A DNA stretch of 46,097 nt from a virus. The notes beneath the pieces were generated by a model, which was not told the origin of the DNA, did no database searches, and worked only from the letters and a program-made list of their open reading frames with translations. The translations under genes were made by a program, and so were the position numbers. The stretch lies in IMG/VR virus record IMGVR_UViG_3300044490_000149, positions 1 to 46,097 of that record; one strand, written 5' to 3'. Each line of letters opens with the position of its first letter. The stretch's first letter is position 1. Below, piece by piece: positions 20,344 to 45,374 of the stretch.

Positions 20344-22422
20344 ATGGCTACTGAAAACCAGATAAAAGAGTTCAGAAAGTTGTTTGACGAAAAAGAGGGC
20401 AAGGACTTCCCCCTTCCGCAGTTTAGCGGCAAGGGAATAGTCACTACCGCAGGGGGTCATTGCTTTATCTGTATGGCGTATGCCTCTTTCAAACTATTAA
20501 GGCATTTAGGATGCACCTTGCCGATAGAGTGGTTTTACATTGACGATAAGGAGATGCCCGCCAGATACAGAAAATATATAGAGGACATCGGCAACGTAAA
20601 ACTCATTAAAGTCGATGGGATAAAGCAAAACAGCAGTTATTGGAAGGAAAAAGGTGGTTGGCAGTCAAAGGTCAAGGCGATAATGCAGTCCTCATTCAAA
20701 GATGTGTTGTTTCTTGACGCTGATTGTTTCTGTATTAAAGACCCGACATATCTCTTTGATGAGACGGAGTTCAAGCAGTATGGTGCGTTCTTTATGCCAG
20801 ATACGAGGAAGTGGGACACCGAGAGGTGGGCTACTTTGGGCGAGGTATTCGGTGTAGATTTTAATCCTGAACACCACGAGTTTGAGTCATCGGTCATAAT
20901 GGTTGATAAGGACAGGTGTTGGAAAGCACTTAACCTTGTAGACTTCATAAACGGACACTCCGACCTGATATACGAGTTCGTGTATGGCGATAAAGACACC
21001 TTCTACTTCGGGTTTAGGAAGGCGAAGAAGGACTACTTCATCAATCGTGGCTCGCTTATCAAGGCGGGCGGTCTTTTTATTCACAGGGACTACAAGGGTT
21101 TTCCGTTATTCAGACACCTCACCGGAGCAAAATTCTCTACCGTATCGGGCGGTTGGAAGCATAACCATAAGTTGTTTCCTTATACGACCCTCGCCTATTC
21201 GTATATGGACAGGATGAAACAGATACACTTGAAAGAGAAATTACCCGAACCTCAAGAGGTTAAACTCTCCGACATTTGTATCATGGTATCCACTTGCGAG
21301 AAATATAAAGACAGAGCGAAGGCTGTTCTTGAAACTTGGGGCCGGGGTTTAGATAACCTATACTTCATCGTGGATAAACCAATGGGACTTCCTAACGAAG
21401 TCGTTACTGGATTTTCCACCTATCACGAACTGTCGCAAAAAAGTGCCTTCATGTGGGATTGGGCATCCAAGCAAAATTACAAATGGTTCATCAAGATAGA
21501 CGATGATTCTTATTTGTGGACCGATAGGCTTGTTAAAGAACTTTGTAAATACGATCACAGAACTAAAATGGCTCTTGGTGATCTAACTAATATGAGTGAG
21601 TGTGCTAACTGGTGGGACATCTATTGGATTTCTGGCGGTGCGGGGATTGTTTTAAGCAAGCCCGTTCTCGCATATATCAGCGGCAATACTCCAGAGAAAT
21701 ATGCAGGGATGGAGGATGTATGGTTATCGGATATTCTCATTGGCCTTAAGGTTCCTATGCTTAATGTACCGGGGATGTGCCAATATTTTGATGACAATGT
21801 GAATTTTGAAAAACTGATTTCTCTGCACGAATTAAATCCGGAGGATTTGTACGCTCTGGATAAGGGCGAAAAAATCACCGCCCGATACCGCATACGCACA
21901 AGGGATTATTTACCTGCTTTCTTTGAGAAAGAAGGATACAGGGTGGGAGTGGAGGTCGGGGTTTGGGAAGGCGAGTTCTCGGAGCATATCCTCAAGCATT
22001 GGTCTGGTAAACTTTATTCGGTAGACCCTCTTAAAGAAGATAAGAGGTTGCCGAACATAGCCATGGTCAATCTTCCGCAAGAGAAACTTGACGCTATATA
22101 CGCCACCGCAATCTCCAGATTAAGCAAATACGGCGATAGGAGCGTATTTGTCCGCAAGAGTTCGATAGAAGCATCAAAAGATTTTGAAGACGGAAGTTTG
22201 GATTTCGTCTACATAGATGGACTCCATTATTATGACAATGTGATTGAGGATATCAAGGCATGGATCCCTAAAATCCGCAAGGGCGGTATAATTTCAGGAC
22301 ACGACTATTACGAAGACACTTGGGGATGTGCGGTAAGGAAAGCGGTCGATATGTTGGTTCCTAATGTAAGTCATACCCTTGAGAAGCGGGCAAGCGTTTC
22401 TTGGTATAAAATCATAGAGTGA
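20344..22422 (+). CDS. Three-domain fusion: GT71-like, GT31-like and methyltransferase
   Basis: 692 aa. Residues ~25-290 resemble the alpha-mannosyltransferase family (Mannosyl_trans3/GT71): GKGIVTTAGG, LPIEWFYIDD, WQSKVKAIMQSSF and the DxD motif LFLDADCF (DAD at 125-127). Residues ~300-510 resemble beta-glycosyltransferases of the Fringe/GT31 type (DICIMVSTCEKYKDRAKAVL, FIKIDDDSYLW with DDD at 386-388, ISGGAGIVLSK, GMEDVWLSDIL). Residues ~520-692 are a class I SAM methyltransferase of the Methyltransf_24 type (GVEVGVWEGEFS at 535, VYIDGLHYY, GGIISGHDYY). It probably builds and caps a short glycan. It lies directly behind the fibres, with different codon flavour. Acceptor unknown. Confidence 0.8.
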   Translation: MATENQIKEFRKLFDEKEGKDFPLPQFSGKGIVTTAGGHCFICMAYASFKLLRHLGCTLPIEWFYIDDKEMPARYRKYIEDIGNVKLIKVDGIKQNSSYWKEKGGWQSKVKAIMQSSFKDVLFLDADCFCIKDPTYLFDETEFKQYGAFFMPDTRKWDTERWATLGEVFGVDFNPEHHEFESSVIMVDKDRCWKALNLVDFINGHSDLIYEFVYGDKDTFYFGFRKAKKDYFINRGSLIKAGGLFIHRDYKGFPLFRHLTGAKFSTVSGGWKHNHKLFPYTTLAYSYMDRMKQIHLKEKLPEPQEVKLSDICIMVSTCEKYKDRAKAVLETWGRGLDNLYFIVDKPMGLPNEVVTGFSTYHELSQKSAFMWDWASKQNYKWFIKIDDDSYLWTDRLVKELCKYDHRTKMALGDLTNMSECANWWDIYWISGGAGIVLSKPVLAYISGNTPEKYAGMEDVWLSDILIGLKVPMLNVPGMCQYFDDNVNFEKLISLHELNPEDLYALDKGEKITARYRIRTRDYLPAFFEKEGYRVGVEVGVWEGEFSEHILKHWSGKLYSVDPLKEDKRLPNIAMVNLPQEKLDAIYATAISRLSKYGDRSVFVRKSSIEASKDFEDGSLDFVYIDGLHYYDNVIEDIKAWIPKIRKGGIISGHDYYEDTWGCAVRKAVDMLVPNVSHTLEKRASVSWYKIIE

Positions 22423-22713: not shown

Positions 22714-23064
22714 ATGGTGTCGATAATCATACCGACCTACACAAATGCCAAAGGATTGGTCGAGTGTGTGGAAAGCGTAAAGAAGTACACGGATATGAGT
22801 CAGGTAGAACTCATAGTCGTAGCAAATGGCGCTCCGGAAGAGTCCAGGAAGTATGCCACGTTATGGTTTGACGAGCCGCTTGGTTATGCAAAGGCGGTTA
22901 ACGCCGGGATCCGCGCGGCAAAGGGTGATTATATAGTCCTGTTAAACGACGATTGTGTTCTGTTGCCACAGCCGGTAAACAAATGGATCGAGATGTTGAG
23001 GAAACCTTTTGATGATGATAGGAATAACCGGGCCGACGTTAGCATGGTCGGAAACGCAAAATGA
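22714..23064 (+). CDS. GT2 glycosyltransferase, N-terminal half only
   Basis: 116 aa; ATG 22714 has a strong AAGGAGGAG site. It shows the nucleotide-sugar-binding half of a GT2 GT-A fold: start VSIIIPTYTNAKGL, central GYAKAVNAGIRAAKGDYIVL, and metal-binding NDD at 78-80. It runs out into an unrelated tail after about residue 98. The acceptor half continues in the +1 frame from 23012. This is either a two-piece enzyme translated from overlapping genes or an old frameshift. Confidence 0.75.
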   Translation: MVSIIIPTYTNAKGLVECVESVKKYTDMSQVELIVVANGAPEESRKYATLWFDEPLGYAKAVNAGIRAAKGDYIVLLNDDCVLLPQPVNKWIEMLRKPFDDDRNNRADVSMVGNAK

Positions 23065-23347
23065 TTGGTGCGTAATATTCTATTGCGCGATGATACGGAG
23101 GAAGGTCTTTGAAGATGTCGGTTTACTTGATGAGCGATTTGGCGCGGGGAATGGAGAGGATGTCGAGTTTTGCATTAGAGTCCAGGATGCCGGATGGAGC
23201 ATTAAAGAGGCCGGCGATCCTATTAAATATACGCCGAACAGAATAATGGGTAAATTTCCGATAGATCATATCGGATCAGTAACTTTGGAGCCATATGGTA
23301 GGAATAACAGGGCCAGTTTTAGGATGGTCAGATCCGGCGCGCAGTAA
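23012..23347 (+). CDS. GT2 C-terminal half module A
   Basis: 111 aa from ATG 23012, with GAGGAAA at 22998-23004 (spacing 7), so independent initiation is plausible. It contains only the acceptor-side half of a GT2: IGITGPTLAW, IFYCAMIRRKVFEDVGLLDE and GNGEDVEFCIR (the conserved ED before the C-terminal helix). It completes the upstream half at 22714, which lies in the 0 frame. It is one of three diverged copies of this module (see 23295 and 24104). Confidence 0.7.
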   Translation: MMIGITGPTLAWSETQNDWCVIFYCAMIRRKVFEDVGLLDERFGAGNGEDVEFCIRVQDAGWSIKEAGDPIKYTPNRIMGKFPIDHIGSVTLEPYGRNNRASFRMVRSGAQ

Positions 23348-24119
23348 GTTCGTAATATTCTACTGCGCCATGATAAAGCGCGAGGTGATCGATAAGATAG
23401 GACTTCTTGACGAGTCTTTCCAGGAAGGTGCCGGGGAAGATACGGACTTTTGTGTAAGGGCATTGGATGCCGGATATAAACAGGCAGAGGTTCCGGATAA
23501 ACCAAAATTCATAGGAGGACAATTCTGCGGTGGGTTTCCTATATATCACAAAGGCGAGGCAACTGTTGGAAAGTTGGAAAACTGGAATGAGATATTTCAT
23601 AGAAACAGCGGGAGACTTGCCGACAAGTATAGCGATCGTCCTATCCGTCTTAATCTCGGTTGTGGTCCTTATTATATGGACGGTTACGTTAATATTGATC
23701 TTTTCAACGACGTGGCGGATATAAACTGCGATGCTACGGATCTGTCCAGGTATAAGTCCGGAACGGTGGATGAGGTATATGCAGGACATCTTTTGGAGCA
23801 TTTCTCTCCATACCGGGTGATGGCTATTTTACGTGAATGGGCAAGGGTGCTAAAACCGAATGGCCGGCTTGTTATGGAACTTCCGGATATAGAGGAATGT
23901 TGCAAGCAATATGCCGGAGCAGATAAAGGTAAGAAGTATGAGATCCTTACTTGCATATATGGACAATTGCCGGATGTTAAGGTTCCACATCAGTATGGAT
24001 GGGACCTGGAACTTCTTACAGATCACCTTACCTGGGCCGGATTTATTGATATAGTTAAAAAACCACAACAGGTTTATCATGGCGGCTATAACATGAGGAT
24101 AGAATGCAAAAAGGCGTAG
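23295..24119 (+). CDS. GT2 C-terminal half module B fused to a SAM methyltransferase
   Basis: 274 aa; ATG 23295 has GGAG 4 nt upstream and overlaps module A by 53 nt. Residues 1-105 repeat the GT2 acceptor half (VGITGPVLGW, IFYCAMIKREVIDKIGLLDE, GAGEDTDFCVR, GGFPIYHKGEATV). Residues ~115-274 are a class I methyltransferase (IRLNLGCGPYYMDGYVNIDL, then GHLLEHFSPYRVMAILREW and LKPNGRLVMELP), the type often found in LPS and capsule clusters. No nucleotide-sugar-binding half is present. The GT part would need a partner or serves as a binding module. Confidence 0.75.
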   Translation: MVGITGPVLGWSDPARSKFVIFYCAMIKREVIDKIGLLDESFQEGAGEDTDFCVRALDAGYKQAEVPDKPKFIGGQFCGGFPIYHKGEATVGKLENWNEIFHRNSGRLADKYSDRPIRLNLGCGPYYMDGYVNIDLFNDVADINCDATDLSRYKSGTVDEVYAGHLLEHFSPYRVMAILREWARVLKPNGRLVMELPDIEECCKQYAGADKGKKYEILTCIYGQLPDVKVPHQYGWDLELLTDHLTWAGFIDIVKKPQQVYHGGYNMRIECKKA

Positions 24120-25432
24120 GCATAACAGGAATCAGAGAGCATACAGAGGTAGGGATTCCTTTCCTGATAGGGTTTTGCTTGATGATTAAAAAAGAATGCC
24201 TGGATGAAATAGGCCTTATGGATGAACAATTCGGTATAGGCGCTATGGAGGATGTAGATCTATGCCATAGAGCGCGCCTTGCCGGATGGGGTATGAAGGC
24301 AGTCCAGGGCGTCAATATACAACATATTCCGGAGCAGACAGTTCACCATCTTCCGCAGGGCCGGCAATATTGGGAAGATCATTTTAAGAAGAATCAGGAT
24401 CTCCTGGCCAGGAAGTGGAATCTTAAACGGAAAGTGACGGTGGATATATGCACAAGAAACAGATATCAAACGACTCTTCCGCTTTGCCTCAATTCTGTCG
24501 CCATGCAAAGTTATGTGCCTTACGAAGTGATTATATACGACGATACGGATACGTCTTTCCGGAAAGATATGAGGCAGGATCCTGTCTTAAGTCATTGCCT
24601 TGTCCTATTACAACAAAAGGGAATCTCCTGGCGTGTGATATTCGGAGAAGGCCGGGGACAGGTGGAAGGACATAGGACAGCGCTAAAAGAGGCAAAGGGA
24701 GAGTTTATCTGGCGCTTGGATGATGACAATGTTCCGGAGCCGGATGTCTTGGAAAAACTGATGAAAAACTTTGAACCGGATGTCGGCGCGGTCGGCGGAC
24801 TTGTCCTGGATCCGGGTAAGGTATCAACGTCATCCATAGCAAGTAACAAGATAGAGGATATATATCTTGGCCTTAATGTTCAATGGTTTCGCCAGGATCG
24901 GAAGATCGAAGTCGATCACCTGTACTCTACCTTTGTGTATAGGAAAGACCAGGATTATTACCCTACAGGGTTATCGCGCGTAGGGCATCGTGAAGAGACG
25001 ATTATGACCTATAGGATGCGGAGGCAGGGTTGGCGCCTGATTGTTGATCCTGGGGCAATTACGTGGCATTTAAGGGGTCCTACAGGGGGTATTAGGGGCG
25101 AAAAAGGCGATTTTTGGGCAAAAGACGAGCAAATCTTCTCGCAGATGCTTATAGATTGGGGCGTCCGGCCGACTATATATAAGACCATAACGCTCGATAA
25201 TGGAATAGGAGATCACTATGCGTTTCGCAAAGTCCTTCCTAAAATATTGTCTCGTTATCCTAATTTTATACTTGCTTGTTGCTATCCCGACGTGTTTAGT
25301 TCTTTTCCTGTTAGGATTGTTTCGATAGGGGAGGCCAGGGCGGCAGGGTGGGGAGATAACATTTACCGGTTCATGGTGGAAAATAACTGGAAAGGAAATA
25401 TTGTAGAGGCGTATGAAAAGTATTATTGTTAG
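24104..25432 (+). CDS. GT2 half module C + complete GT2 + N-terminal GT9 segment
   Basis: 442 aa; ATG 24104 has GAGG 5 nt upstream and overlaps the previous gene by 16 nt. Residues 1-105 are the third copy of the GT2 acceptor half (VGITGIREHTEVGIPFLIGF, GAMEDVDLCHR). Residues ~110-345 form a complete GT2 (VTVDICTRNRYQTTLPLCLN, WRLDDDNVPEPDVL, GHREETIMTYRMRRQGWRLI). Residues ~365-442 look like the start of a GT9 heptosyltransferase fold (DNGIGDHYAFRKVLPKIL), which continues in the next gene. A composite multi-transferase. Confidence 0.72.
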   Translation: MQKGVGITGIREHTEVGIPFLIGFCLMIKKECLDEIGLMDEQFGIGAMEDVDLCHRARLAGWGMKAVQGVNIQHIPEQTVHHLPQGRQYWEDHFKKNQDLLARKWNLKRKVTVDICTRNRYQTTLPLCLNSVAMQSYVPYEVIIYDDTDTSFRKDMRQDPVLSHCLVLLQQKGISWRVIFGEGRGQVEGHRTALKEAKGEFIWRLDDDNVPEPDVLEKLMKNFEPDVGAVGGLVLDPGKVSTSSIASNKIEDIYLGLNVQWFRQDRKIEVDHLYSTFVYRKDQDYYPTGLSRVGHREETIMTYRMRRQGWRLIVDPGAITWHLRGPTGGIRGEKGDFWAKDEQIFSQMLIDWGVRPTIYKTITLDNGIGDHYAFRKVLPKILSRYPNFILACCYPDVFSSFPVRIVSIGEARAAGWGDNIYRFMVENNWKGNIVEAYEKYYC

Positions 25433-25865
25433 TCCGTGGTCGCATGGTCCGGATAATGCTAAAACGTATCCGCACATGCAGTCATTGTGCGATATGTTTC
25501 GCAAGGACTATAGGTTGATTCAGATCGGATTAGGCAACGAGTCCAGATTAACCGGATGTGACTACGCATGGAACCTGCGTCTTTCGGATGTTGAAAAATT
25601 AGTTAAAGAGGTAGGTTATTTTATATCAATAGATAATTTTTTGCATCATTTGGCGTATAACCTGGACGTACCTGGCACTGTTATCTTTGGGCCGTCGGAT
25701 CCAGAGATATTCGGGTATAAGACCCAGATCAATGTGATCAAAGACAGGTCACTCTTACGAACGGATCAATTCGGGTTCTGGAAAGGATATAAATGGCCTA
25801 ATGCTGATACAGGGTGGTATCCGGCCGAGGTCATCTATAAAATGGGGGTGATGTACTGTGTATGA
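25413..25865 (+). CDS. GT9 (heptosyltransferase-like) C-terminal half
   Basis: 150 aa; ATG 25413 overlaps the previous gene by 20 nt, with AGAGG 3 nt upstream. It contains SIIVSPWSHGPDNAKTYP and YFISIDNFLHHLAYNLDVPG followed by VIFGPSDPEIFGY. These are the nucleotide-sugar-binding features of GT9 enzymes such as ADP-heptose:LPS heptosyltransferases. The N-terminal half lies at the end of the upstream protein in another frame, so GT9 appears split as GT2 is. It likely acts on a surface or virion glycan. Confidence 0.7.
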   Translation: MKSIIVSPWSHGPDNAKTYPHMQSLCDMFRKDYRLIQIGLGNESRLTGCDYAWNLRLSDVEKLVKEVGYFISIDNFLHHLAYNLDVPGTVIFGPSDPEIFGYKTQINVIKDRSLLRTDQFGFWKGYKWPNADTGWYPAEVIYKMGVMYCV

Positions 25866-31308: not shown

Positions 31309-31789
31309 GTGCGTATATCTCACTATGGAAGAGATCGAGGCGGCTACGAGGCACGCCTTAAAGATCAAAGACGTGGATAATAAGGCCGGTATATATGACG
31401 ATAAGAAGGCCTCGTATACATCGGCTGAAGTAAATATACAGGGGTCTCTTGGCGAATTGGCGGCGCATAAATTATGGTGTATCTCCTGGATGCCGGAGGT
31501 ATTGCCGGGACCTACAAAAAAGGGCGATATATTGATACATGACAGGTGGTATGACGTGAAATGCCAGTTTCCGGCGAGTTTCGGAAGGGTGATGAATATA
31601 AACAGGCGATGCGAGCGCGCGGCAGTAGTCGGATTTATGTGCCTGGACCGAAAGGAGGATTGTTTTATATACCGGGGATTGATAAGCAAGGAAAATGCTA
31701 TATCACAGAAATACAGGACCGCGCATAAGAACGGAGATCATGGATACTTTTATGAAATTCCACAGAAGGATTTAAGGGAGATATTATAA
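31292..31789 (+). CDS. PD-(D/E)XK-like endonuclease
   Basis: 165 aa; ATG 31292 has GAAGGA upstream and overlaps the replication gene by 17 nt. Catalytic-core pattern: VNIQGSLGELAAHKLW with Glu, then KKGDILIHDRWYDVKCQF giving the D-x(n)-DVK arrangement. It may be a nicking, Holliday-junction or host-degrading nuclease. The exact class is not clear. Confidence 0.58.
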   Translation: MPRIGECVYLTMEEIEAATRHALKIKDVDNKAGIYDDKKASYTSAEVNIQGSLGELAAHKLWCISWMPEVLPGPTKKGDILIHDRWYDVKCQFPASFGRVMNINRRCERAAVVGFMCLDRKEDCFIYRGLISKENAISQKYRTAHKNGDHGYFYEIPQKDLREIL

Positions 31790-31804
31790 AAAAGGAGGGA
31801 TAGT

Positions 31805-31984
31805 ATGCGTTGTCAGTTATGCTTAAAAGAAACGGATAATATTATTTTAACGGCTGAGGCAATACAAAAAGTGGTGCCAATGGGCGCGCATTCGGAAAGA
31901 GAGGTTTATACTTTTTGTAATTTATGGTGCTTACTTAAATGGTTATGCGCGAAACTTGACGTCGCTTGGAGAGTAATGCGATGA
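31805..31984 (+). CDS. 59-aa protein with CxxC motifs
   Basis: ATG 31805 with a strong AAAGGAGG. It starts MRCQLC and has a second Cys group (FCNLWCLLKWLC), so one zinc site is likely. No family was recognised. Confidence 0.5.
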   Translation: MRCQLCLKETDNIILTAEAIQKVVPMGAHSEREVYTFCNLWCLLKWLCAKLDVAWRVMR

Positions 31985-32017
31985 AGAGATGGGAGGGCTA
32001 AATGGCAAAGACCATCT

Positions 32018-32041
32018 CGCCCACTCAACTAACAAAGGTGG
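32018..32041 (+). repeat. Near-perfect 24-bp direct repeat (partner 32706-32728)
   Basis: The 24 bases at 32018-32041 and the 23 bases at 32706-32728 differ by one extra A. They share CGCCCACTCA and CTAACAAAGGTGG. They bracket two small genes and two folded RNA elements. The 3' half contains an AAAGGTGG stretch that could serve as a ribosome binding site. Confidence 0.8.
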
Positions 32042-32159
32042 CTCGTGTCTTGGTCGACATATATGGTATGGGAAAATAGCGTAACAATTATGAGGGTGCT
32101 ACCTCACCAAATCCAGTAGTGGAAGAAGGGACGAAAGCCCTGCCAACCACCGAGCCACT
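32037..32159 (+). ncRNA. Candidate structured RNA 1 (multi-branched)
   Basis: A closing stem of 8-9 bp joins 32038-32045 (GTGGCTCG) to 32151-32158 (CGAGCCAC). Inside are a hairpin TGTC/GACA at 32046-32059 with TTGG in its loop, a hairpin TGAGG/CCTCA at 32091-32106, and a final arm GTGG/CCAC (32119-32122 with 32147-32150) enclosing AGGG/CCCT with a 7-nt loop. The 3' end is CCACTCACTAA, as in the element at 32567. No known family was recognised. Confidence 0.4.
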
Positions 32160-32170
32160 CACTAAAACAT

Positions 32171-32419
32171 ATGAACAAACAAACCCGAAATAAGATGTTA
32201 CGCTACATCGAAAACTCATATCACAAGATTGACTTTGTGATGATGGGAGCCCTCGCCTCTTGCGCCATAGAGGGTAATCCTATGTATAATCGTGTCGGAA
32301 AGGTTTATGGGTGGATATGGGGGGATGAGCGGATAAAGACCGCACCAACTGACCTTGAAATAGAGAGTGTGTATTTGTTAATGAAGAAGGTGAAAAATAA
32401 TGAACTGCCCAAAGTGTAA
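32171..32419 (+). CDS. Uncharacterised 82-aa protein
   Basis: ATG 32171 lies 12 nt after the candidate RNA element; the ribosome binding site is poor. It contains YIENSYHKIDFVMMGALASC and VGKVYGWIWGDERIK. Codon use (more AC-rich, fewer CCGG) differs from the virion genes. No family was recognised. Confidence 0.5.
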   Translation: MNKQTRNKMLRYIENSYHKIDFVMMGALASCAIEGNPMYNRVGKVYGWIWGDERIKTAPTDLEIESVYLLMKKVKNNELPKV

Positions 32420-32564
32420 TTATCCGCAGCAATGTCCTTGTAAGAACTGTAACCCGTCTGTCAAGCCGTGGATACAACACGGTGATATAATCGAATGTGC
32501 TGGCTGCGGATTCAAGGCTCATAGTGACTGGTGGGAACGTAAAGCGTTAGAGGAATTGGAATAA
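32400..32564 (+). CDS. Zinc-ribbon micro-protein
   Basis: 54 aa; ATG 32400 overlaps the previous gene. Cys pairs are MNCPKC, CPCKNC and ECAGCGF, followed by HSDWWERKA. This fits one or two zinc ribbons as in small transcription- or DNA-associated phage proteins. Function unknown. Confidence 0.55.
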   Translation: MNCPKCNYPQQCPCKNCNPSVKPWIQHGDIIECAGCGFKAHSDWWERKALEELE

Positions 32565-32566
32565 AC

Positions 32567-32714
32567 GAGTGGGCGGTGGCGTTCTGGCGAAAACGCTGGA
32601 ATAGATATTGAGTGAATATGGTGTTATCGGTAGATTATTTCTACTGATAAATTAAATGTCGGAAAGACAGCCCAAGCAAATATCAAAGCAGGTTCAAATC
32701 CTGCCCGCCCACTC
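32567..32714 (+). ncRNA. Candidate tRNA-like structured RNA with expanded anticodon region
   Basis: A 10-bp perfect closing stem pairs 32567-32576 with 32705-32714. Just inside it are T at 32577, a D-arm-like hairpin (GCGT/ACGC, 32579-32582 with 32593-32596, a 10-nt loop containing GG) and, abutting the 3' strand, a canonical T-arm (32688-32704, 5-bp stem with 7-nt loop TTCAAAT). In the anticodon position a 6-bp helix GATATT/AATATC (32604-32609 with 32679-32684) encloses an 11-bp hairpin (32624-32650) and a 4-bp hairpin (32657-32669). No standard anticodon loop and no encoded CCA. Possibly a tmRNA-like, intron-bearing or mimic RNA. Confidence 0.55.
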
Positions 32715-32779
32715 ACTAACAAAGGTGGTAATAGGGGAGTAAACATAGTAATAAAGGAGGACAGAGATGGAGGTGACAA

Positions 32780-32935
32780 ATGAAGTTTAATGAGGACGGA
32801 GTAAGTGATTGGAAATTGGTAGAGGATTTCTACAAAAAACTATGGGAACTTCACGATAGTGGTGCATTGCCGAATGACCAAGACGATATTGCGATTAAAA
32901 TAATCAATGCAATAGACAATATTATGGGGAGGTAG
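32780..32935 (+). CDS. 51-aa acidic helical protein
   Basis: ATG 32780 with a good GGAGGTG site. Acidic and helical (WKLVEDFYKKLWELHDSG). No family was recognised. Part of a run of tiny genes, each with its own strong ribosome binding site. Confidence 0.48.
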   Translation: MKFNEDGVSDWKLVEDFYKKLWELHDSGALPNDQDDIAIKIINAIDNIMGR

Positions 32936-32942
32936 GACTAAT

Positions 32943-33170
32943 ATGCCACAGGAGACGGTGAGAGAGATTATTAGAAACATATGTGCCAACTTTTCAAATG
33001 GGATAAGGATGGATTATATCGAAATCTCCGCCATCTCTAAACTCGCACAAGCGATAAGGGAGCGGAAGAAGAAAAATTCTTGGGCAGAGAACGACTTTGA
33101 GGGCAACCCGACATTGTGTTCTGGCTACAACCAAGCCATCGAAGATATCGCAAGGTGGATAGAGAAGTAG
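32943..33170 (+). CDS. Small helical protein, paralogue of 33209
   Basis: 75 aa; ATG 32943 after GGGGAGGTAGG. It begins MPQETVREIIRNIC and contains ISAISKLAQAIRER. The 43-aa protein at 33209 shows the same order (MPTTIRDEIDILC ... ILASISKLCSDRR) and similar upstream bases, indicating tandem duplication. Function unknown. Confidence 0.52.
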   Translation: MPQETVREIIRNICANFSNGIRMDYIEISAISKLAQAIRERKKKNSWAENDFEGNPTLCSGYNQAIEDIARWIEK

Positions 33171-33208
33171 ACCATTTTGTTGGTATTAACAATATGGGGA
33201 GGGATTAA

Positions 33209-33340
33209 ATGCCAACGACGATACGAGATGAAATAGATATATTATGCCAAAAGGTTTTGATAAGCGACTATAATGAAACAGACCTCTTGAAACAAGAAAT
33301 CCTCGCCTCCATCTCTAAACTATGTTCAGATAGGCGATAA
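33209..33340 (+). CDS. 43-aa short paralogue of the 32943 protein
   Basis: ATG 33209 is preceded by ATATGGGGAGGG, almost the same leader as the gene at 32943. It aligns with that protein at both ends but lacks the C-terminal part. No family was recognised. Confidence 0.48.
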   Translation: MPTTIRDEIDILCQKVLISDYNETDLLKQEILASISKLCSDRR

Positions 33341-33350
33341 AACAGAAGAT

Positions 33351-33809
33351 ATGTTTAAAGAGTTTATGTTAGGCAAAGGGATTGAATTGATAGATAAGCC
33401 ATACGGACAAACTGGACTTGATTTTGGGCGTAAAAACAAGAACGTTTTGTATGAAGTTAAGGGTCCGGAAAAGATACCCGACCGATCTTGGCATATTAAA
33501 AATCTTCCGGATTATGAATACCCAATAGTATTTGATATTGGCAAGATTCTACAGTATACAGAATTTTACAATAAACACCAAGACATACCGCAGTATATTT
33601 TTCTTCTCGCAAAATATGGCGGAGATTGGTCGCATCTTAAAGGGTGGTGGTGGATCCGGATGTATGATTTTTTAAATCAGTATTGGAAAGATAAGGCGTC
33701 CAACAGGGGATTTTATAAGCGCCACATGCGCACCGATGAATTATATACCGGTAAAACAAATCTAAATAAATGGCACATAGAGATACATAAATTTAAAAAG
33801 GTTTTATGA
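33351..33809 (+). CDS. PD-(D/E)XK-like small protein
   Basis: 152 aa; ATG 33351 with a weak purine-rich site. LDFGRKNKNVLYEVKGPEKI gives a D-x(n)-EVK core typical of PD-(D/E)XK nucleases. The C-terminal half is rich in Trp, Tyr and Lys (GGDWSHLKGWWWIRMYDF). No specific family was recognised; nuclease activity is plausible but unproven. It overlaps the radical SAM gene by 4 nt. Confidence 0.48.
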   Translation: MFKEFMLGKGIELIDKPYGQTGLDFGRKNKNVLYEVKGPEKIPDRSWHIKNLPDYEYPIVFDIGKILQYTEFYNKHQDIPQYIFLLAKYGGDWSHLKGWWWIRMYDFLNQYWKDKASNRGFYKRHMRTDELYTGKTNLNKWHIEIHKFKKVL

Positions 33810-34600
33810 GAATAGCGCGAGTATTTCCAAGTAAGACGAGCATGACTCCTATCGATCCGGATGCCTATTATGGTCCGCCGGATCTTTTTACGCCGCAGTA
33901 TGACGAGGTTCATATAAGTGTCGTGTTCACATGGGATAAGCCAAAGGCAGAGCGCCTGGCTCTGGAATGGCGCCGGTATGGGAGCGTCCGGATCGGCGGC
34001 CCGGCCATAGACGGCGAAAGTGCGGAGCCGATGATTCCAGGGCGCTATTTGCGGCCGGGCATTACAATAACGTCGCGCGGATGCATAAAGGCATGTTCAT
34101 TTTGTATGGTCCGGCGCGGCCTGGTGGAGTTGGATTCATTCCCGGATGGGAATATCGTCCAGGACAATAACCTATTGGCCTGCGGATGGGGTCACCGGGC
34201 CAGGGTATGGGATATGCTGAAAAAACAGAAATCTATAGAGTTTCGCGGTGGAATAGATAAATATCTTATGACAGATAAGATTGCGGCGGATATGAGGTTG
34301 CTATCAGTTAAAGAGATATGGATGGCATGCGATTCTAATAAAGATATTGAGCCGTTGCGTATAGCGATATCGAAACTGAATAAAGTAGGATTTACCAGAG
34401 AGCATCTTTACTGTTACGTTTTGATAGGCAAAGATATCGCGGACGATGAGGCGCGGCTCCGGGCAGTATATGCGGCCGGAGTGCTACCATTTGCGCAGTT
34501 ATATATTGACCGGGATAATTCAATAAAATATTCACGTGAATATCGCCGATTTGCTCGCATATGGTCAAGACCGGCGCTATACAGGAGGTTGTGTAAATGA
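33806..34600 (+). CDS. Radical SAM protein
   Basis: 264 aa; ATGA overlap with the preceding gene. The iron-sulfur motif is SRGCIKACSFC (C93, C97, C100; CxxxCxxC), followed by a partial TIM-barrel pattern (IEFRGGIDKYL, KEIWMACDSNKD, YCYVLIGKD). The N-terminal ~85 residues (MRIARVFPSKTSMTP...VRIGGPA) resemble phage and bacterial radical SAM proteins of unknown function. It is translationally coupled to a PAPS-reductase-like protein, suggesting a joint modification of DNA, RNA or a small molecule. Confidence 0.75.
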   Translation: MRIARVFPSKTSMTPIDPDAYYGPPDLFTPQYDEVHISVVFTWDKPKAERLALEWRRYGSVRIGGPAIDGESAEPMIPGRYLRPGITITSRGCIKACSFCMVRRGLVELDSFPDGNIVQDNNLLACGWGHRARVWDMLKKQKSIEFRGGIDKYLMTDKIAADMRLLSVKEIWMACDSNKDIEPLRIAISKLNKVGFTREHLYCYVLIGKDIADDEARLRAVYAAGVLPFAQLYIDRDNSIKYSREYRRFARIWSRPALYRRLCK

Positions 34601-35391
34601 GCAACATAATCACAGAAAGAACGTTATTCGATTTTGTTGACAAAGAAAAAACATCTATGGATCGCCTACGTCATTATGAGCCGCCGGAAGGGTATTGGTT
34701 GGCATTCAGCGGTGGAAAGGATAGCATCGTTTTGTATGATATCGCAAAGCGATCCGGTGTAAAATTTGAGGCGCATTTTAAAATGACAAGCGTAGATCCA
34801 AAAGAGTTACTTATGTTTATCAAAAAAAATTATCCTGATGTTATTTGGCATAAGCCGGTTACCAACATGTGGAAACTTATTGAAAAGCATGGGATACCGC
34901 CTACGCGAATGATTCGGTATTGCTGTAGGGAATTAAAAGAGGAAACAGGACATGCTGATAAGGGAAGATTTATTCTTACAGGAGTAAGATGGGCCGAAAG
35001 CGTAAAGCGGCGCGGACGGAAGATGGTAGACATATGTCTTAAAGATGGGCAAAAGAATTTTTTGCATCCAATCATAGATTGGAAGGATTCGGAGATATGG
35101 AAATATATCAGGCATTATAATATTCCGTATTGCGAATTATACGATCAGGGATTTACCCGAATCGGCTGTATTGGTTGTCCAATGTCATCGGCTAAAAAGC
35201 GCAAGATGGAATTTATCCGGTGGCCGCATTATAAGAAAGCATATCTAAATGCATATGCACGAATGATCAAGGCCAGAGAAGAAAGGGGTCTTGAGAAATT
35301 ATGGGATACTCCGGAGCAAGTAATGGCCTGGAATATGGAAGAATATAAAATCCATAAAGGACCGCCGGAGCCAACATTATACGAGTATTAA
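34597..35391 (+). CDS. PAPS reductase-like (PP-loop, adenylyl-sulfate reductase family) protein
   Basis: 264 aa; ATGA overlap with the radical SAM gene. The PP-loop is AFSGGKDS at 36-43. RYCCRELKE in the middle and IGCIGCPMSS near residue 190 give Cys groups seen in the PAPS reductase/DndC-like superfamily. Members reduce sulfate donors or thiolate nucleic acids. In phages the role is usually unproven; here coupling to a radical SAM enzyme favours nucleic-acid or metabolite modification. Confidence 0.75.
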   Translation: MSNIITERTLFDFVDKEKTSMDRLRHYEPPEGYWLAFSGGKDSIVLYDIAKRSGVKFEAHFKMTSVDPKELLMFIKKNYPDVIWHKPVTNMWKLIEKHGIPPTRMIRYCCRELKEETGHADKGRFILTGVRWAESVKRRGRKMVDICLKDGQKNFLHPIIDWKDSEIWKYIRHYNIPYCELYDQGFTRIGCIGCPMSSAKKRKMEFIRWPHYKKAYLNAYARMIKAREERGLEKLWDTPEQVMAWNMEEYKIHKGPPEPTLYEY

Positions 35392-35535
35392 ATGAGCGGA
35401 AAACTGATATTATTTTTATCATGCGTTAATATATGCGTTAGCATATTTGCTATGTTTGAGGGTAACTATTTAAGGGCGCTTTATTGGTTTGGAGCGTTCC
35501 TGATAAATTTAAGCGTGTATTTTATGAAAGGATAA
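35392..35535 (+). CDS. 47-aa two-helix membrane protein
   Basis: ATG 35392 directly follows the upstream stop. Two hydrophobic segments (LILFLSCVNICVSIFAMF and LYWFGAFLINLSVYF) separated by EGNYLRA. It could be an antiholin, a superinfection factor or a membrane peptide; no family was recognised. It is far from the lysis genes. Confidence 0.5.
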   Translation: MSGKLILFLSCVNICVSIFAMFEGNYLRALYWFGAFLINLSVYFMKG

Positions 35536-35536
35536 T

Positions 35537-35878
35537 ATGAATTGGTATCCAAAGCGAAGATCAAAATATAACAGCACCACATGCACATGCCAGGCCGGGC
35601 ATATGCACCATAGTCGCTTTGAGGCCGGGTATTGTAACGATCTGCACAGGTTAAAGCGCCAGGGTGAGGTCCTGGAGATCCGGACGCAGGTCAAATATTC
35701 TATGGATGTGAACGGCATACACATCACAAATTACTATGCCGATTTTGTGGTGACAGGCAAAGACGGAGCCGTATCCGTCCACGAGACGAAAGGGATGGTG
35801 ACCGATGTTTACATTATTAAGAAACGTTTGTTTAGCGCTTGTTATCCTGGCGTGCCTTTTCATGAGATCAAATATTGA
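35537..35878 (+). CDS. DUF1064-like endonuclease
   Basis: 113 aa; ATG 35537 after AAAGGATA. The pattern HHSRFEAGYCNDLHRLKRQG, YYADFVVTGKDG and VHETKGMVTDVYIIKKRL matches DUF1064, a PD-(D/E)XK family found in phage replication regions. Likely catalytic set: Glu in RFEAG, Asp in YADF, and E-x-K in ETKG. Probably a structure-specific or Holliday-junction-type nuclease. Confidence 0.7.
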   Translation: MNWYPKRRSKYNSTTCTCQAGHMHHSRFEAGYCNDLHRLKRQGEVLEIRTQVKYSMDVNGIHITNYYADFVVTGKDGAVSVHETKGMVTDVYIIKKRLFSACYPGVPFHEIKY

Positions 35879-35987
35879 CAGTGCTTACGCGGTAGGCATA
35901 TCCGGTATCGATGCGTCATGCGATCCTACACAGGAACCCATAGATGGTCAACCGGTGGAGGGCGTTCCTTGTGGCGAAAGGGAGTAA
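35805..35987 (+). CDS. Possible exported small protein overlapping the DUF1064 gene
   Basis: 60 aa in a different frame, overlapping the previous gene by 74 nt. It has a credible signal peptide (LLRNVCLALVILACLFMRS, then SAYA) and a short acidic Cys/Pro-containing mature part. The ILAC near residue 17 is a loose lipobox. An out-of-frame signal-peptide ORF is reminiscent of Rz1-type spanins, but it lies away from the lysis genes. Start uncertain; an internal ATG is also present. Confidence 0.38.
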   Translation: MFTLLRNVCLALVILACLFMRSNIDSAYAVGISGIDASCDPTQEPIDGQPVEGVPCGERE

Positions 35988-36162
35988 AAAGCGTTGGAAT
36001 AAGTCGGTTTTTATGGGAACAGATGAAGATATTCACAAAGCGTACGATGTTCTTGCGGCAGAGATATTTAAGTATGCTGTCAAGTCCTGGCGCAAAGGTA
36101 AGACATCGACGGAGAATTTGAAGAAAATTCATAATTATCTCTATGAGGAGAATTTCATATGA
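35971..36162 (+). CDS. Small basic helical protein
   Basis: 63 aa from GTG 35971, chosen because GGAGGG at 35957-35962 is 8 nt upstream; the longer frame from 35944 lacks a site. AKGSKKRWNKSVFMGTDED is followed by two helices ending YLYEENFI. No family was recognised. Confidence 0.5.
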   Translation: MAKGSKKRWNKSVFMGTDEDIHKAYDVLAAEIFKYAVKSWRKGKTSTENLKKIHNYLYEENFI

Positions 36163-36263
36163 TATACTATTAGGTGGAGGTAGACATGGAGTTTGCCTTT
36201 GCAGGGAGCGTTGGCCGTTAAGGCCCTGTCAATCCTCGGAACGGCTATAATATAAGGGCATAC

Positions 36264-36488
36264 ATGTTCGATTGTTCTGCGGCCTCTTGCGTCCGGCAGG
36301 TATCAGGAAAAAAGACCTATATTAATTTCTTGATAGAATCTGAATGTCGGCATGCAAAGGCCAATTCTTGTAAGTATCCGAAATACGTGCGTCGGCCGCA
36401 TCCGGGAGAAACCGGATCGAGGCAGACGCATTTTACGTCTATGGGTCGGGCGGTCCAGACTCATTTTAATAAGATAGCGGTGAGATAG
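36264..36488 (+). CDS. Small Cys/His-containing protein upstream of terminase
   Basis: 74 aa; ATG 36264 with AAGGG upstream. Cys and His residues (DCSAASC, ECRHAKANSC) suggest a metal site. No family was recognised. The 100 bases before it hold only an 11-codon frame (36186), a short GGCC palindrome and a lone TATAAT. Confidence 0.48.
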   Translation: MFDCSAASCVRQVSGKKTYINFLIESECRHAKANSCKYPKYVRRPHPGETGSRQTHFTSMGRAVQTHFNKIAVR

Positions 36489-36490
36489 CG

Positions 36491-36814
36491 GTGCCTTTTC
36501 CCAATACTGATACGCAATTTAAGCCAGGGAATCCAAAGCCAAAGACATCAGGCAAGAAGAAGGGATATTGCGATCCGGCTAAAGAGTTGGAAAAACTACT
36601 TGATAAGAAGATTGCTTACGAAGATCCTACCACAAAGAAAAATGTCAAAGGCAAGATAGGTGTTGCTGTTGCACTCCGGACAATATACAATGCGCTTGAA
36701 GGTGATCAGAAGGCATGTGAATACATCATGAACCGGATCGCCGGAAAGCCGGCAGAGAAACATGAGATCACCGGCGCTGACAATGGCCCGGTGATTATTA
36801 AATGGGAATCATAA
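36491..36814 (+). CDS. Terminase small subunit-like protein
   Basis: 107 aa; GTG 36491. It begins with FKPGNPKPKTSGKKKGYC, the basic Gly/Pro-rich start seen in DUF5681 and phage small terminase proteins. A helical segment (AVALRTIYNALEGDQKACEY) and a C-terminal AGKPAEKHEITG follow, both common in small terminases. It sits two bases before the large subunit, as expected for a DNA-recognition subunit of the packaging motor. Confidence 0.68.
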   Translation: MPFPNTDTQFKPGNPKPKTSGKKKGYCDPAKELEKLLDKKIAYEDPTTKKNVKGKIGVAVALRTIYNALEGDQKACEYIMNRIAGKPAEKHEITGADNGPVIIKWES

Positions 36815-36815
36815 A

Positions 36816-38144
36816 TTGCCTATCGTAACCATACCCTATAAACCGCGTTACCCTCAAGACATAATTCATCCGGCTATTGAAAAATGCCGCTTTGCTGTCC
36901 TGGTGGCGCATAGGCGCCTCGGCAAGACTGTTCTATCATTAAACCACATGATTAAAATGGCGGCGCAGAATACACTCCGGGATCCGCGCTATGCCTATAT
37001 CGCTCCGTTCTTGAAACAGGCCAAGTTGATTGCCTGGAATTATCTAAAGCATTACACAATGCCTATCCCTGGCGTAAAGGTCAATGAATCTGAATTATCA
37101 GTTGCATTGCCTAACGGCGCAAAGATATTCTTATTCGGCGGCGATAACCCGGATGCGTTAAAGGGAACATATCTCGATGGCGTAATCCTCGATGAATACG
37201 CTCAAATGAGGCCGGAGTTATTTGGCGAGGTTATCCGGCCCACGCTGACAGATCGTTCCGGGTGGGCGTTATGGATCGGGACACCGAAAGGGCAGAATCA
37301 GTTTTATGAAATATGGCAAACAGCGCAGAAGAAAGTCGCGGAAGGTGATGCGACATGGTGGGCCGGGATCTACCGCGCCGACGAAACCAGTATTATTCCG
37401 GAGGCAGAATTACAACAACTCCGGGACGTATTGTCTGATGCTACTTACCGGCAAGAGTTGCTGTGCGATTTTAGTGCGGCCGCCGACAACGTCCTTATCA
37501 CTATCGATCTCGCTACTACGTCACGCCATAAAAAATATACGGAAGGCGATGTATTCGGGGCGCCGCGTATCCTCGGGGTAGATCCGGCCCGGTTCGGCGA
37601 TGACAGGGCCGTAATCATACGGCGCCAGGGCCTCCAGGCGTTTACGCCTAAAGTATTCACCAAGATAGACAACATGACGCTTGTGGCCAAAGTTGTCAAT
37701 GAGATCGTAGAATGGAATCCGGACGCCATATTTATAGACGCCGGGCGCGGCGAGGGCGTTATAGATCGCTTGCGCCAGTTGGGATATGAGAACATATTTG
37801 AAGTAAACTTTGGCGGCACTCCGCTTGCGCCTGGCGCATACCATGACAAGCGTTCTGAAATGTGGGATCTATTGAAACAATGGATGATTGACGGCGGTGC
37901 CATACCGGATATGCCGGAGGTAGTGGCCGACATTGTTGTTCCTACTTATTCTTATGACGCCGCCAATCGTATGAAGTTAGAGGCCAATGACAAGATTAAA
38001 GAGCGTCTCGGTAAGTCACCGGATATCGGTTCGGCCCTGGCGCTGACGTTCGCAATGCCGGTGCGCGTCAAGGTAGACGCATTTGGTCGTAACATGGGTA
38101 AGAAGTTAGAGTTCGCCAAGACAACGGAAGACGTATTTGCATGA
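36816..38144 (+). CDS. terL: Terminase large subunit
   Basis: 442 aa; TTG start at 36816 immediately after the small-subunit gene. ATPase: Walker A AHRRLGKT at 31-38, Walker B GVILDEYAQM with the catalytic pair at 126-127, and a coupling-type IGTPKG motif. RNase H-like nuclease: GVDPARFGDDR near 250, AIFIDAGRGEG, and a late Asp in KSPDIGSALAL. This is the motor that packages and cuts phage DNA. Length and motifs are normal. Confidence 0.93.
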   Translation: MPIVTIPYKPRYPQDIIHPAIEKCRFAVLVAHRRLGKTVLSLNHMIKMAAQNTLRDPRYAYIAPFLKQAKLIAWNYLKHYTMPIPGVKVNESELSVALPNGAKIFLFGGDNPDALKGTYLDGVILDEYAQMRPELFGEVIRPTLTDRSGWALWIGTPKGQNQFYEIWQTAQKKVAEGDATWWAGIYRADETSIIPEAELQQLRDVLSDATYRQELLCDFSAAADNVLITIDLATTSRHKKYTEGDVFGAPRILGVDPARFGDDRAVIIRRQGLQAFTPKVFTKIDNMTLVAKVVNEIVEWNPDAIFIDAGRGEGVIDRLRQLGYENIFEVNFGGTPLAPGAYHDKRSEMWDLLKQWMIDGGAIPDMPEVVADIVVPTYSYDAANRMKLEANDKIKERLGKSPDIGSALALTFAMPVRVKVDAFGRNMGKKLEFAKTTEDVFA

Positions 38145-38578
38145 GTAATCTTAATATCAAATGCTATCACGAAATAATGCCCGGAGACGTTCTCCTGGAA
38201 ATAGAGGCTCTGGCCAAGACTTGCGGCATCAACGAAGAATATGATCGTGCTTGTGATCTGGTATATACATGGGTCATCGACGAGAAGATCGTCGCTGTAA
38301 TAGCGTTTAAGAAGGTTTTATTTACCGACGGCCAGACGATTCCGCGCCTGGAGCATATATTTGGCCTACCGGAAGTTCAAAAGACGAGGCGCGGCGTCAT
38401 ATTCTTACTATCCGTAGAACAACAAATAATGGAATACGGATTTAAGCAGATGTGGGCCTTTATCGACAGGACACGCGGATATATGTATGATTATGCAGTA
38501 AAGTTCGGATTCAAGGAATATGCCGCAAGTAAAGACGGCACTTACTTGATAAAGAACATAACAAAAAGGAGATTCTAA
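38141..38578 (+). CDS. GNAT-family acetyltransferase-like protein
   Basis: 145 aa; ATGA overlap with the terminase. It shows a GNAT-like order: strand AVIAFKKVLF, a helix after RLEHIFGLPEV, and C-terminal AFIDRTRGYMYDYAVKFGFK, equivalent to the region that closes over acetyl-CoA. Such genes often lie between terminase and portal in related podoviruses. Substrate unknown. Confidence 0.58.
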   Translation: MSNLNIKCYHEIMPGDVLLEIEALAKTCGINEEYDRACDLVYTWVIDEKIVAVIAFKKVLFTDGQTIPRLEHIFGLPEVQKTRRGVIFLLSVEQQIMEYGFKQMWAFIDRTRGYMYDYAVKFGFKEYAASKDGTYLIKNITKRRF

Positions 38579-38579
38579 T

Positions 38580-38816
38580 ATGTGCGGATCTAAACCACCG
38601 GCACCACCACCGCCTCCGCCGCCGCCGTCATTACCACCGCCGGCGCCGACACCGATTCCGTCAGAAGTAGCGCCACAACAGACTGCGGAACAGAGGCGTA
38701 ATCGTGTTAATGCGTTGAAGTTTGGCGCGGCGTCTACGATAAAGACATCGCCTCAAGGTCTTACCGGACAGGGTTCTGACCTTACCGGGACAGGGAAGAA
38801 AACGATAGGTTCATGA
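38580..38816 (+). CDS. Proline-rich virion-associated small protein
   Basis: 78 aa; ATG 38580 with AAAAGGAG. It starts MCGSKPPAP followed by eight consecutive prolines. The C-terminal part (LKFGAASTIKTSPQGLTG) is a conserved ending of small proline-rich proteins in podoviral head operons. Probably a minor virion or assembly component. Confidence 0.6.
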   Translation: MCGSKPPAPPPPPPPPSLPPPAPTPIPSEVAPQQTAEQRRNRVNALKFGAASTIKTSPQGLTGQGSDLTGTGKKTIGS

Positions 38817-39436
38817 AGATAACGATCGGATTGCCTTGCGGTGATATGGTATATACCGACTTTGCTATGTCGCTTAATGCGGCATGTATATATACTTTAC
38901 AGCAGGGCGTGGAGATCCGGGCGATAATCACAAAGAAGGGTTCGCTTGTCCACCAGGCGCGATGTTCGCTTGTTGAAGAGGCGCGCAATACCGGAGCAGA
39001 TCATCTTTTGATGGTAGATAGTGATCACATATTTCCAAAGGATATGATCACGCGCCTGGTTGGGCATGATAAAGACATTGTGGCGGTTCACAGCGTTACC
39101 AAGCGGCCGCCTGTAAGATCGAATTGTGAGGACCTCAAAGGGCAGAGGTTGACAAAGCCGGGTGCAGGTCTGGAAGAGGTCAGCCGGATCGGCACCGGGA
39201 TCATGCTTGTCAGCATGAAAGTATTTGACAAGTTGCGTCAGCCGTATTTTGAATACAAGTTTGAGAAGGGTCTGTTTAAGACGCCGCGATGGACAGGAGA
39301 AGATTATAACTTCTGCGAGGCGGCCAGGCACAAAGGTTTTAAGATATACTGCGATCATGATTTATCAAAAGAGTGTTATCACATAGGACCTGCTAACTAC
39401 GGTGTCCAGGAATTGGAGCGTAAAGATGGCAATTAA
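38813..39436 (+). CDS. GT-A type glycosyltransferase in the packaging operon
   Basis: 207 aa; ATGA overlap with the previous gene. It begins KITIGLPCGDMVYTDFAMSL; ADHLLMVDSDHIFPKDM contains the DxD-type VDSD, and WTGEDYNFCEAARHKG the conserved acidic motif of GT2-like enzymes. Phage-encoded transferases of this type occur beside portal genes. They may glycosylate virion proteins or host surface. It overlaps the portal start by 11 nt. Confidence 0.7.
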   Translation: MKITIGLPCGDMVYTDFAMSLNAACIYTLQQGVEIRAIITKKGSLVHQARCSLVEEARNTGADHLLMVDSDHIFPKDMITRLVGHDKDIVAVHSVTKRPPVRSNCEDLKGQRLTKPGAGLEEVSRIGTGIMLVSMKVFDKLRQPYFEYKFEKGLFKTPRWTGEDYNFCEAARHKGFKIYCDHDLSKECYHIGPANYGVQELERKDGN

Positions 39437-41186: not shown

Positions 41187-41196
41187 GGAGACGGAG

Positions 41197-41559
41197 ATGA
41201 AGAGGTTATTTGCATTAGTATTGGCGGTTGGATTATTGTTATCGTCTGTTGAGGCGTGGGCCGCGGCAGCGACAGTTACTGAAACCGAATACGGATATTC
41301 CGTTACCGGTGGAACGTCTGAAACCAGGATAGCGGCAGGCAGGATCCGCGTAAGGGTTATAGCGTATACCGCTACTACGGCGAATAACGTCGCGGCGTTC
41401 AGGTCCGGAGCGACAAGCGGATCGTACTGGTATATGAAAGCGGAGGCGGCGTCCGCTGCCGACAGGTGCTACATATACTTTGGAGATAACGGCGTAGTGT
41501 TTGACGAATTGTCGGTTACTCTTCCGGCCGTGACGGACGTAGTCCAGATATATAACTAA
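41197..41559 (+). CDS. Exported protein in the head operon
   Basis: 120 aa; ATG 41197 after AAGGAGACGGAG. A clear signal peptide (KRLFALVLAVGLLLSSVEAWA, cut after Ala) is followed by a beta-rich Thr/Ala/Ser domain with GYSVTGGTSETRIAAGRIRV. The mature part resembles small beta-sandwich phage proteins. Export of a head-operon protein is odd; it may coat the cell surface. Confidence 0.6.
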   Translation: MKRLFALVLAVGLLLSSVEAWAAAATVTETEYGYSVTGGTSETRIAAGRIRVRVIAYTATTANNVAAFRSGATSGSYWYMKAEAASAADRCYIYFGDNGVVFDELSVTLPAVTDVVQIYN

Positions 41560-41570
41560 AGGAGGCCTCT

Positions 41571-41609
41571 ATGCCTTGCGGTAAGGGCAAGAAGAAGAAA
41601 GGCAGATAA
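41571..41609 (+). CDS. 12-aa basic micro-peptide MPCGKGKKKKGR
   Basis: A strong GGAGG sits 7 nt before ATG 41571. Very short Lys/Gly peptides at this place occur in related podoviral head operons. It may be a real peptide or a translational relay to the next gene. Confidence 0.4.
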   Translation: MPCGKGKKKKGR

Positions 41610-41611
41610 TT

Positions 41612-42241
41612 ATGCGACATGGCGAGGCTATAATCAGCGCAAGATATAAGTTGCCGACATCGGATGGTTCGGCGGGGCAAGTGATAAGGACCGATGGCGC
41701 AGGCACCTGTTCGTGGGCAGGAGTTTCTACTACTCCGAATATGCAGATATTTACTTCTTCTGCGATGTGGACAAGGCCTGGTGGGGTCACGACTGTTGAC
41801 GTGGAATGCGTTGGGGGAGGCGGAGGAGGGGATTCCGCAGGGAATTATACCGGAGGTGGCGGTGGAGCGTATGTTCGCAAGATAGTAACAGTCTCCGGGG
41901 ATGTGATGGTGACGATTGGTGCCGGAGGTAATCAATCTGGAAATAATCCTGCCACACCGGGTCTTCCGACCGCTTTTGGTGGTTTGGTGATAGCGTCAGG
42001 CGCAATGGGAGCAGGTGTGGGAGGCTTGGCGACCGGTGGAGATATTAACATAGACGGAGAAACCACTTATTGGAAATACGGAGGAGACAGTCCGTTAGGA
42101 TTTGGTCGTGGCGGTAAGGTTTATACATCAGGGGTTAATATATACTTTTTATTTAAAAAGTGGGGATTTGGCGCAGGTGGTTCTTGTCTTGATTATCCCA
42201 ATTGCAACGGATTGCCTGGTGTATGTATTGTAAGGTGGTAA
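41612..42241 (+). CDS. Glycine-rich fibre-like protein
   Basis: 209 aa; ATG 41612 two bases after the micro-peptide. The segment FTSSAMWTRPGGVTTVDVEC, then a seven-residue Gly cluster and GGGGGAYVRKIVTV, is the glycine-rich domain common at fibre tips and adhesins. Its place between portal and Bbp19-like genes suggests a head fibre or decoration. No adaptor domain visible. Confidence 0.58.
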   Translation: MRHGEAIISARYKLPTSDGSAGQVIRTDGAGTCSWAGVSTTPNMQIFTSSAMWTRPGGVTTVDVECVGGGGGGDSAGNYTGGGGGAYVRKIVTVSGDVMVTIGAGGNQSGNNPATPGLPTAFGGLVIASGAMGAGVGGLATGGDINIDGETTYWKYGGDSPLGFGRGGKVYTSGVNIYFLFKKWGFGAGGSCLDYPNCNGLPGVCIVRW

Positions 42242-43325: not shown

Positions 43326-43337
43326 AAGGAGAGAATC

Positions 43338-44372: not shown

Positions 44373-44394
44373 TTACCGGTAAGTATATCGGTAA
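44373..44394 (+). other. Hairpin between capsid and cement genes
   Basis: TTACCG at 44373-44378 pairs with CGGTAA at 44389-44394, extendable to 8 bp. No T tract follows, so an mRNA processing or stability element is more likely than a terminator. Confidence 0.4.
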
Positions 44395-44432
44395 TGTCAG
44401 CGTAGTGTAGTAGGCAAAAAAGGAGAAACAAG

Positions 44433-44843: not shown

Positions 44844-44855
44844 ACTAACTGTTCG

Positions 44856-44879: not shown

Positions 44880-44898
44880 TGGACATAAGGAGGAAAAG

Positions 44899-45360: not shown

Positions 45361-45374
45361 CAAAGGAGGTAACG

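Follow-up and report, generated by a model that had tools for sequence, protein, structure and literature searches.

What could the acceptor half of a GT2 glycosyltransferase do when the donor half that should precede it is gone? This question is raised by a glycan-enzyme cluster in the window analyzed here, an IMG/VR virus record of 46,097 bases taken at its full length. In the cluster, a single donor half is followed by three homologous acceptor halves, two of which head larger proteins with other enzyme domains. To our knowledge, the GT-A fold is regarded as one formed by a single chain. Its acceptor half contributes the side of the groove that takes the acceptor, probably together with the general base, but has no donor site, so on its own it could bind an acceptor but could not transfer a sugar. 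The explanation favored here, with a probability of roughly 40%, is that the cluster is a remodeled GT2 array in which two acceptor halves have been retained as putative acceptor-docking modules, while the donor half and the remaining acceptor half form a GT2 that is either split or dead.

Genome Setting and Parts of the Cluster

The record carries tail, portal, and capsid genes of the podovirus type, and the glycan-enzyme cluster sits downstream of the tail fiber genes. Positions 1–85 and 46013–46097 form an exact 85-bp direct terminal repeat, and given this repeat the genome of 46,097 nt may be complete; IMG/VR classes the record as linear despite the repeat. Elsewhere in the window, a single protein of 692 amino acids (20344–22422) combines Mannosyl_trans3, Fringe-like, and Methyltransf_24 domains, and a glycosyltransferase-like gene (38813–39436; phrog_1574, phrog_12406) adjoins the portal gene.

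All parts of the cluster are encoded on the plus strand. The first, N (22714–23064), is the GT2 donor half, which binds the nucleotide sugar. It matches PF00535 at 1.2e-18 (68 bits against a cut-off of 23.3) and reaches 131 bits with the N model. The homology extends to about residue 100, and the final ~17 codons are an out-of-frame read-through into the next part, C1 (23012–23347; ORF 23009/23012–23347). C1 is an acceptor half with its own ATG that scores 110 bits with the C model over positions 1–94 of 113. It is therefore without the last ~19 module positions, and its final ~17 codons are again out-of-frame read-through, in this case into C2. It retains GEDVEFC and FPIDHIG.

Neither of the other acceptor halves has a donor half, and both are built into larger proteins. 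C2 (23295–23633; 146 bits with the C model) is the N-terminal module of P0003 (ORF 23295–24119), where it is fused to MT, a SAM-dependent methyltransferase domain (23634–24119; PF08241, 2.7e-8); fusions of C to MT are also found in relatives. C3 (24104–24430; 84 bits) is the N-terminal module of P0004 (ORF 24104–25432). It is followed by GT2b, a complete second GT2 domain (24431–25162; PF13641, 2.6e-17), and the protein ends in 9N, the N half of a GT9-like enzyme (25163–25432), which is conserved in 96 related loci. The C half of the GT9-like enzyme, 9C, is a separate gene (25413–25865; PF01075, 1.3e-4, just under the cut-off).

An earlier note, made from the letters of the sequence, had described three acceptor halves in overlapping genes and a single nucleotide-sugar-binding half. 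The second point stands, as a search of the entire 46 kb record found one N half and no second one. The first holds for C1, which has an ORF of its own, whereas C2 and C3 are modules of larger proteins.

Halves of a GT-A Fold

The assignment of one GT2 donor half and three homologous acceptor halves to the ORFs at 22714, 23012, 23295, and 24104 is well founded. C1, C2, and C3 are mutually homologous, with shuffle Z values of 48 (C1–C2), 22 (C1–C3), and 28 (C2–C3), and in the same comparison none of them clearly resembles N or GT2b. All three begin at positions 110–112 of a 224-position N–C model, at the [V/I]GITG strand, which agrees with the common start point that had been proposed. In the fold, the acidic donor-site strand is followed by a helix, and the seam comes after this helix. 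A GEDxDFC-like motif had been placed at the end of each module; the motif is present but central in the acceptor module, with FPIxHxG further on, and in C3 it reads MEDVDLC. The C-terminal stretch beyond FPIxHxG is present in C2 and C3 and absent from C1.

C1, C2, and C3 have each retained the ED motif. In 67 aligned domains, D80 in the donor-site acidic motif of the N half and D149 in the ED motif of the acceptor half are invariant. The share of conserved acceptor-half positions that is kept comes to 97% in C2, 81% in C1, and 67% in C3, and to 83–94% in a group of phages (L018, L024, and L055) described below. C2 and C3 have diverged to 43% identity, C1 and C2 differ at 72% of synonymous sites, and there are no stops or indels within N, C1, C2, or C3. 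A proposed signal of relaxed selection on C1 and C3, taken from their long terminal branches, was withdrawn; the branches of the window's MT, GT2b, 9N, and 9C are equally long.

N and C1 read through as one chain, and modeled with 66 relatives, give a GT-A-like fold (pLDDT 94.1, pTM 0.91); a few residues at its seam are arbitrary, being set by the way in which the two frames were joined. The top PDB matches of this model are GT2 structures (6p61, 9omm, and K4CP 2z86), and the expectation that the modeled halves would form a GT-A fold is thus borne out for this pair. Together with the fused halves found in relatives, the model and its matches support the view that N and C1, C2, and C3 are halves of a GT2 (GT-A-like) enzyme. 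The model of C2 with MT is less confident (pLDDT 83.8, pTM 0.72), and the best 50 Foldseek matches listed for it are methyltransferases only.

Fused Arrays in Relatives

No close relative came up when N, C1, or P0004 was scanned as a single protein; alignment-based scans of viral contigs were needed and gave several hundred related loci. In the first locus set, 194 N–C pairs are fused in one ORF, and the only broken pair is N|C1 of the window. Once all loci are included there are 241 distinct full-length N–C domains. Many phages carry two to four of these domains in tandem, followed by the same MT or joined directly to the same GT2b, and then by 9N and 9C. The array types include N-C-N-C-MT and N-C-GT2b. 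By comparison, C2-MT and C3-GT2b of the window resemble the final parts of two chains of this kind, minus their donor halves.

The same arrangement was sought in related phages, as the earlier note had advised, and the window's own arrangement was not found in any relative. None of the 194 pairs is divided between two genes, and a gene for N alone occurs in none of the relatives. A scan of bacteria yielded no further clean case of a donor-less half; broken GT2s were seen at two loci of bacterial MAGs (L318 and L333). The open-access papers searched contain no description of such GT2 arrays.

Joints Between the Halves

From neighbor to neighbor the reading frame steps by +1, +1, and +2. N and C1 lie in different frames, and C2 and C3 are without an N. 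The differing frames had been taken to mean that this is not one simple frameshift, a view strengthened by the outright absence of two donor halves. The gene overlaps reported earlier are real at the N and C1 ORFs, both of which run ~50 nt past the next start, but they represent out-of-frame read-through and not a compact gene junction.

Each acceptor half has an in-frame ATG no more than four codons from the seam, with a Shine–Dalgarno (SD) pairing of -5.6 to -6.2 kcal/mol, consistent with the claim that every copy has its own ribosome binding site. Among the intact joints of relatives (n = 173), an ATG close to the seam is present in 47, and only 4 combine an ATG with an SD pairing of -4 or lower. 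SD-like words are common in the background, where one-quarter of random sites reach -4.9, and for this reason the signals at the three joints are supportive but not decisive.

The longest run common to the joints is ~10 nt; the sequence they share, TAGGAATAAC, is no more than the coding sequence for the beginning of (V/I)GIT. An exchangeable cassette, as in a shufflon-like system, was rejected, with no near-identical repeats or recombination sites at the cassette ends. As regards a possible programmed +1 frameshift at N|C1 and C1|C2, no known slippery site was recognized by eye, and the relatives include no (0) frame-shifted N–C joint for comparison.

Donor-Less Halves and Seam Breaks in Other Phages

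Donor-less acceptor halves also occur in other phages. In L018, L024, and L055, long polyproteins begin with one (MTKPMKITGPVKF, MITGPVKF, and MEVGVTGPVKF, respectively). The genes upstream of them are three different ones; on the downstream side, the lone half is followed by a methyltransferase in L024 and L055. In each of the three records the C halves outnumber the N halves by exactly one, and a search of these records found no free N half. The lone halves form one clade (FastTree 0.95; IQ-TREE 88.6/94) whose sister sequences have the N half. On parsimony, and with moderate tree support, this suggests that the donor half was lost once in their common ancestor. The lone halves have amino acid identities of 0.68–0.71 and dN values of 0.26–0.30, with saturated synonymous sites, and their conservation is close to that of the intact N–C and methyltransferase domains with which they share a protein. 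If there was a single loss, conservation past synonymous saturation means that selection seems to have kept the lone half over a long time.

Like C2 and C3 of the window, these lone halves start from the same seam with their own ATG and head a larger protein. They differ from the window in that each phage has one lone half, the other N–C domains are intact, and the C class is GPVKF.

A further break at the seam is found in L083 (60–430), where the junction of the N and C halves of a GT2 carries an in-frame TGA four codons ahead of VITGP; the contig ends ~70 bases away. TGA is used as a stop elsewhere in this contig, and the acceptor half starts with GTG. Breaks away from the seam are few, with one in L401 and one in L044, the latter an HNH endonuclease-like insertion. 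The L044 insertion is a homing-endonuclease-like ORF (1210–1878) that lies inside a GT2 acceptor half and splits it. In a count that omits edge-limited and bacterial cases, five of seven break events fall within the ~15 of 224 positions at the seam (2.5e-5); with the window counted once, the figure is three of five (0.003).

Proposed Explanations: A Remodeled Array or a Decaying One

We infer that the ancestor of the cluster most likely had three N–C domains, arranged as N-C1, N-C2-MT, and N-C3-GT2b. The second and third domains would have lost their donor halves by deletion, and N and C1 would have come to lie in different frames, all of these changes falling at the donor–acceptor seam. One deletion probably removed the C1 tail together with the donor half of the second domain, since C1 is without its last ~19 positions. 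The other would have taken only the donor half of the third domain, just past the end of the methyltransferase. C2 and C3 would then be translated from their own starts, with C2 holding a glycan for the MT behind it and C3 doing the same for GT2b. N and C1 would be made as two overlapping proteins, either paired as one split GT2 or dead.

Several lines of evidence favor the remodeled array: the fused N–C domains of relatives, their arrays that end in C-MT or C-GT2b as in the window, the conserved lone halves in L018, L024, and L055, the retention of 97% of conserved positions in C2, the ATG with SD at three joints, and the concentration of breaks at the seam. Counting against it are the loss of one-third of the conserved positions in C3, the loss of the C1 tail, and the ~50 nt out-of-frame ends. 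The conservation of C2 may also predate the window's own losses, and the out-of-frame overlaps and missing C1 tail point to accident in the case of N and C1. The earlier note had offered duplicated carbohydrate-binding modules as one of two explanations. That idea comes nearer to the remodeled array, with the amendment that the modules are GT-A acceptor halves and that binding is putative. A more general proposal can be put forward tentatively. The GT-A acceptor half might be an autonomous module that phages use as a glycan-docking domain on methyltransferases or other transferases, and in this cluster also as a separate chain beside one donor half.

The close rival is decay, a plausible if somewhat doubtful reading that stays close because the conservation seen in the window may be older than its own losses. 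The array would be in the process of being lost, the lone acceptor halves being vestigial leaders of the still-needed MT and GT2b, and N and C1 the fragments of a broken gene. Decay would account well for ORFs that end ~50 nt out of frame at two joints, for a C1 without its C-terminal stretch, for a C3 that keeps only 67% of conserved positions, and for an arrangement present in no relative. It accounts less well for the freedom of N, C1, C2, and C3 from internal stops and indels, for three breaks at one seam that all come with ATG and SD, and for a lone half in L018, L024, and L055 that is conserved past synonymous saturation. If the remodeled array is correct, it would become testable whether GT-A halves can be taken apart and used as building blocks in docking, in split enzymes, or in changing acceptor specificity. 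If there is only decay, the locus still shows where phage GT2 arrays tend to break.

The other explanation in the earlier note, a split enzyme with interchangeable acceptor halves, is improbable. One N would pair in turn with C1, C2, and C3 to give three specificities, an idea that fits the ratio of one N to three C, the shared seam with separate start signals, the ED motif in all three C halves, and the GT-A fold of the N+C1 model. The relatives, however, include none with a separate N gene, and in the records searched the other donor-less C modules occur without a free N half. At 43% identity, C2 and C3 have diverged from each other, and both are tied to other enzymes, and no GT-A precedent was found in the open-access literature. 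The idea has gained no positive evidence.

An assembly artefact, in which intact N–C domains were misjoined with two donor halves dropped and one frame shifted, is about as improbable: the record is metagenomic, its three breaks fall at a single structural point, and no second record covers the region, but ATG and SD stand at every joint, an independent donor-less clade exists (L018, L024, and L055), the record has 0 Ns, and the copies within relatives' arrays share just ~66% identity, their longest exact runs being ~12 nt. The last figures come from N halves within relatives' arrays (average over 96 within-array comparisons), which are no more alike than the C halves. Collapse of repeats (shared k-mers) was judged unlikely because such copies are diverged and their exact runs too short. 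L240, a contig from another dataset, matches the window only at 31728–45601; over these 13.9 kb it is 99.97% identical, with 4 mismatches and 0 indels, and the GT2 cluster lies outside the overlap. This is the same phage assembled twice. No near-identical record was found over the joints, and the other portal relatives are without such a cluster, one weak match aside. The joints are present in the assembled sequence and presumably exist in the living phage.

Comparison with Known Systems

The window shares an N half, a DxD-type acidic motif, an ED motif, and the fold of the N+C1 model with the GT2 family of GT-A fold (PF00535/PF13641), as represented by 6p61, WrtF (9omh–9omn), and the K4CP chondroitin polymerase (2z86/2z87). 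Whereas these enzymes have both halves in one chain, the window has halves on separate chains and two acceptor halves without a donor half. The tandem GT2/methyltransferase polyproteins of IMG/VR phages (L015, L016, L020, L039, L090, and others) have the same N, C, MT, GT2b, 9N, and 9C in the same order. In these polyproteins all 194 N–C pairs are fused, while in the window none is.

Donor- and acceptor-binding halves are found on separate chains in the two-chain GT-B enzymes Alg13/Alg14 and EpsE/EpsF (PMC8993221). The window resembles them in this respect; it differs in that they are GT-B and not GT-A, have a split that is conserved across lineages, and pair at a 1:1 stoichiometry. A conserved split of the Alg13/Alg14 type is not seen for N and C, with 0 of 194 N–C pairs of relatives in two genes and the L083 stop at the seam lying near a contig end. 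No split GT-A enzyme is described in the open-access literature, which is weak evidence of absence.

The cluster also has an apparent conserved two-chain glycosyltransferase of its own. Neighboring ORFs encode 9N and 9C in 107 of 110 loci, and the two halves are continuous in L052, L104, and L105. The pattern of 9N fused behind GT2 and 9C as a separate gene (25163–25865 in the window) extends over ~110 related loci, among them KX815270 (L009, 5995–7403). This last is Methylophilaceae phage P19250A, which differs from the window in having no acceptor half ahead of GT2b and no N/C1/C2 cluster, but which shares with it, in genes 0025–0026, a GT2b-9N protein followed by a separate 9C.
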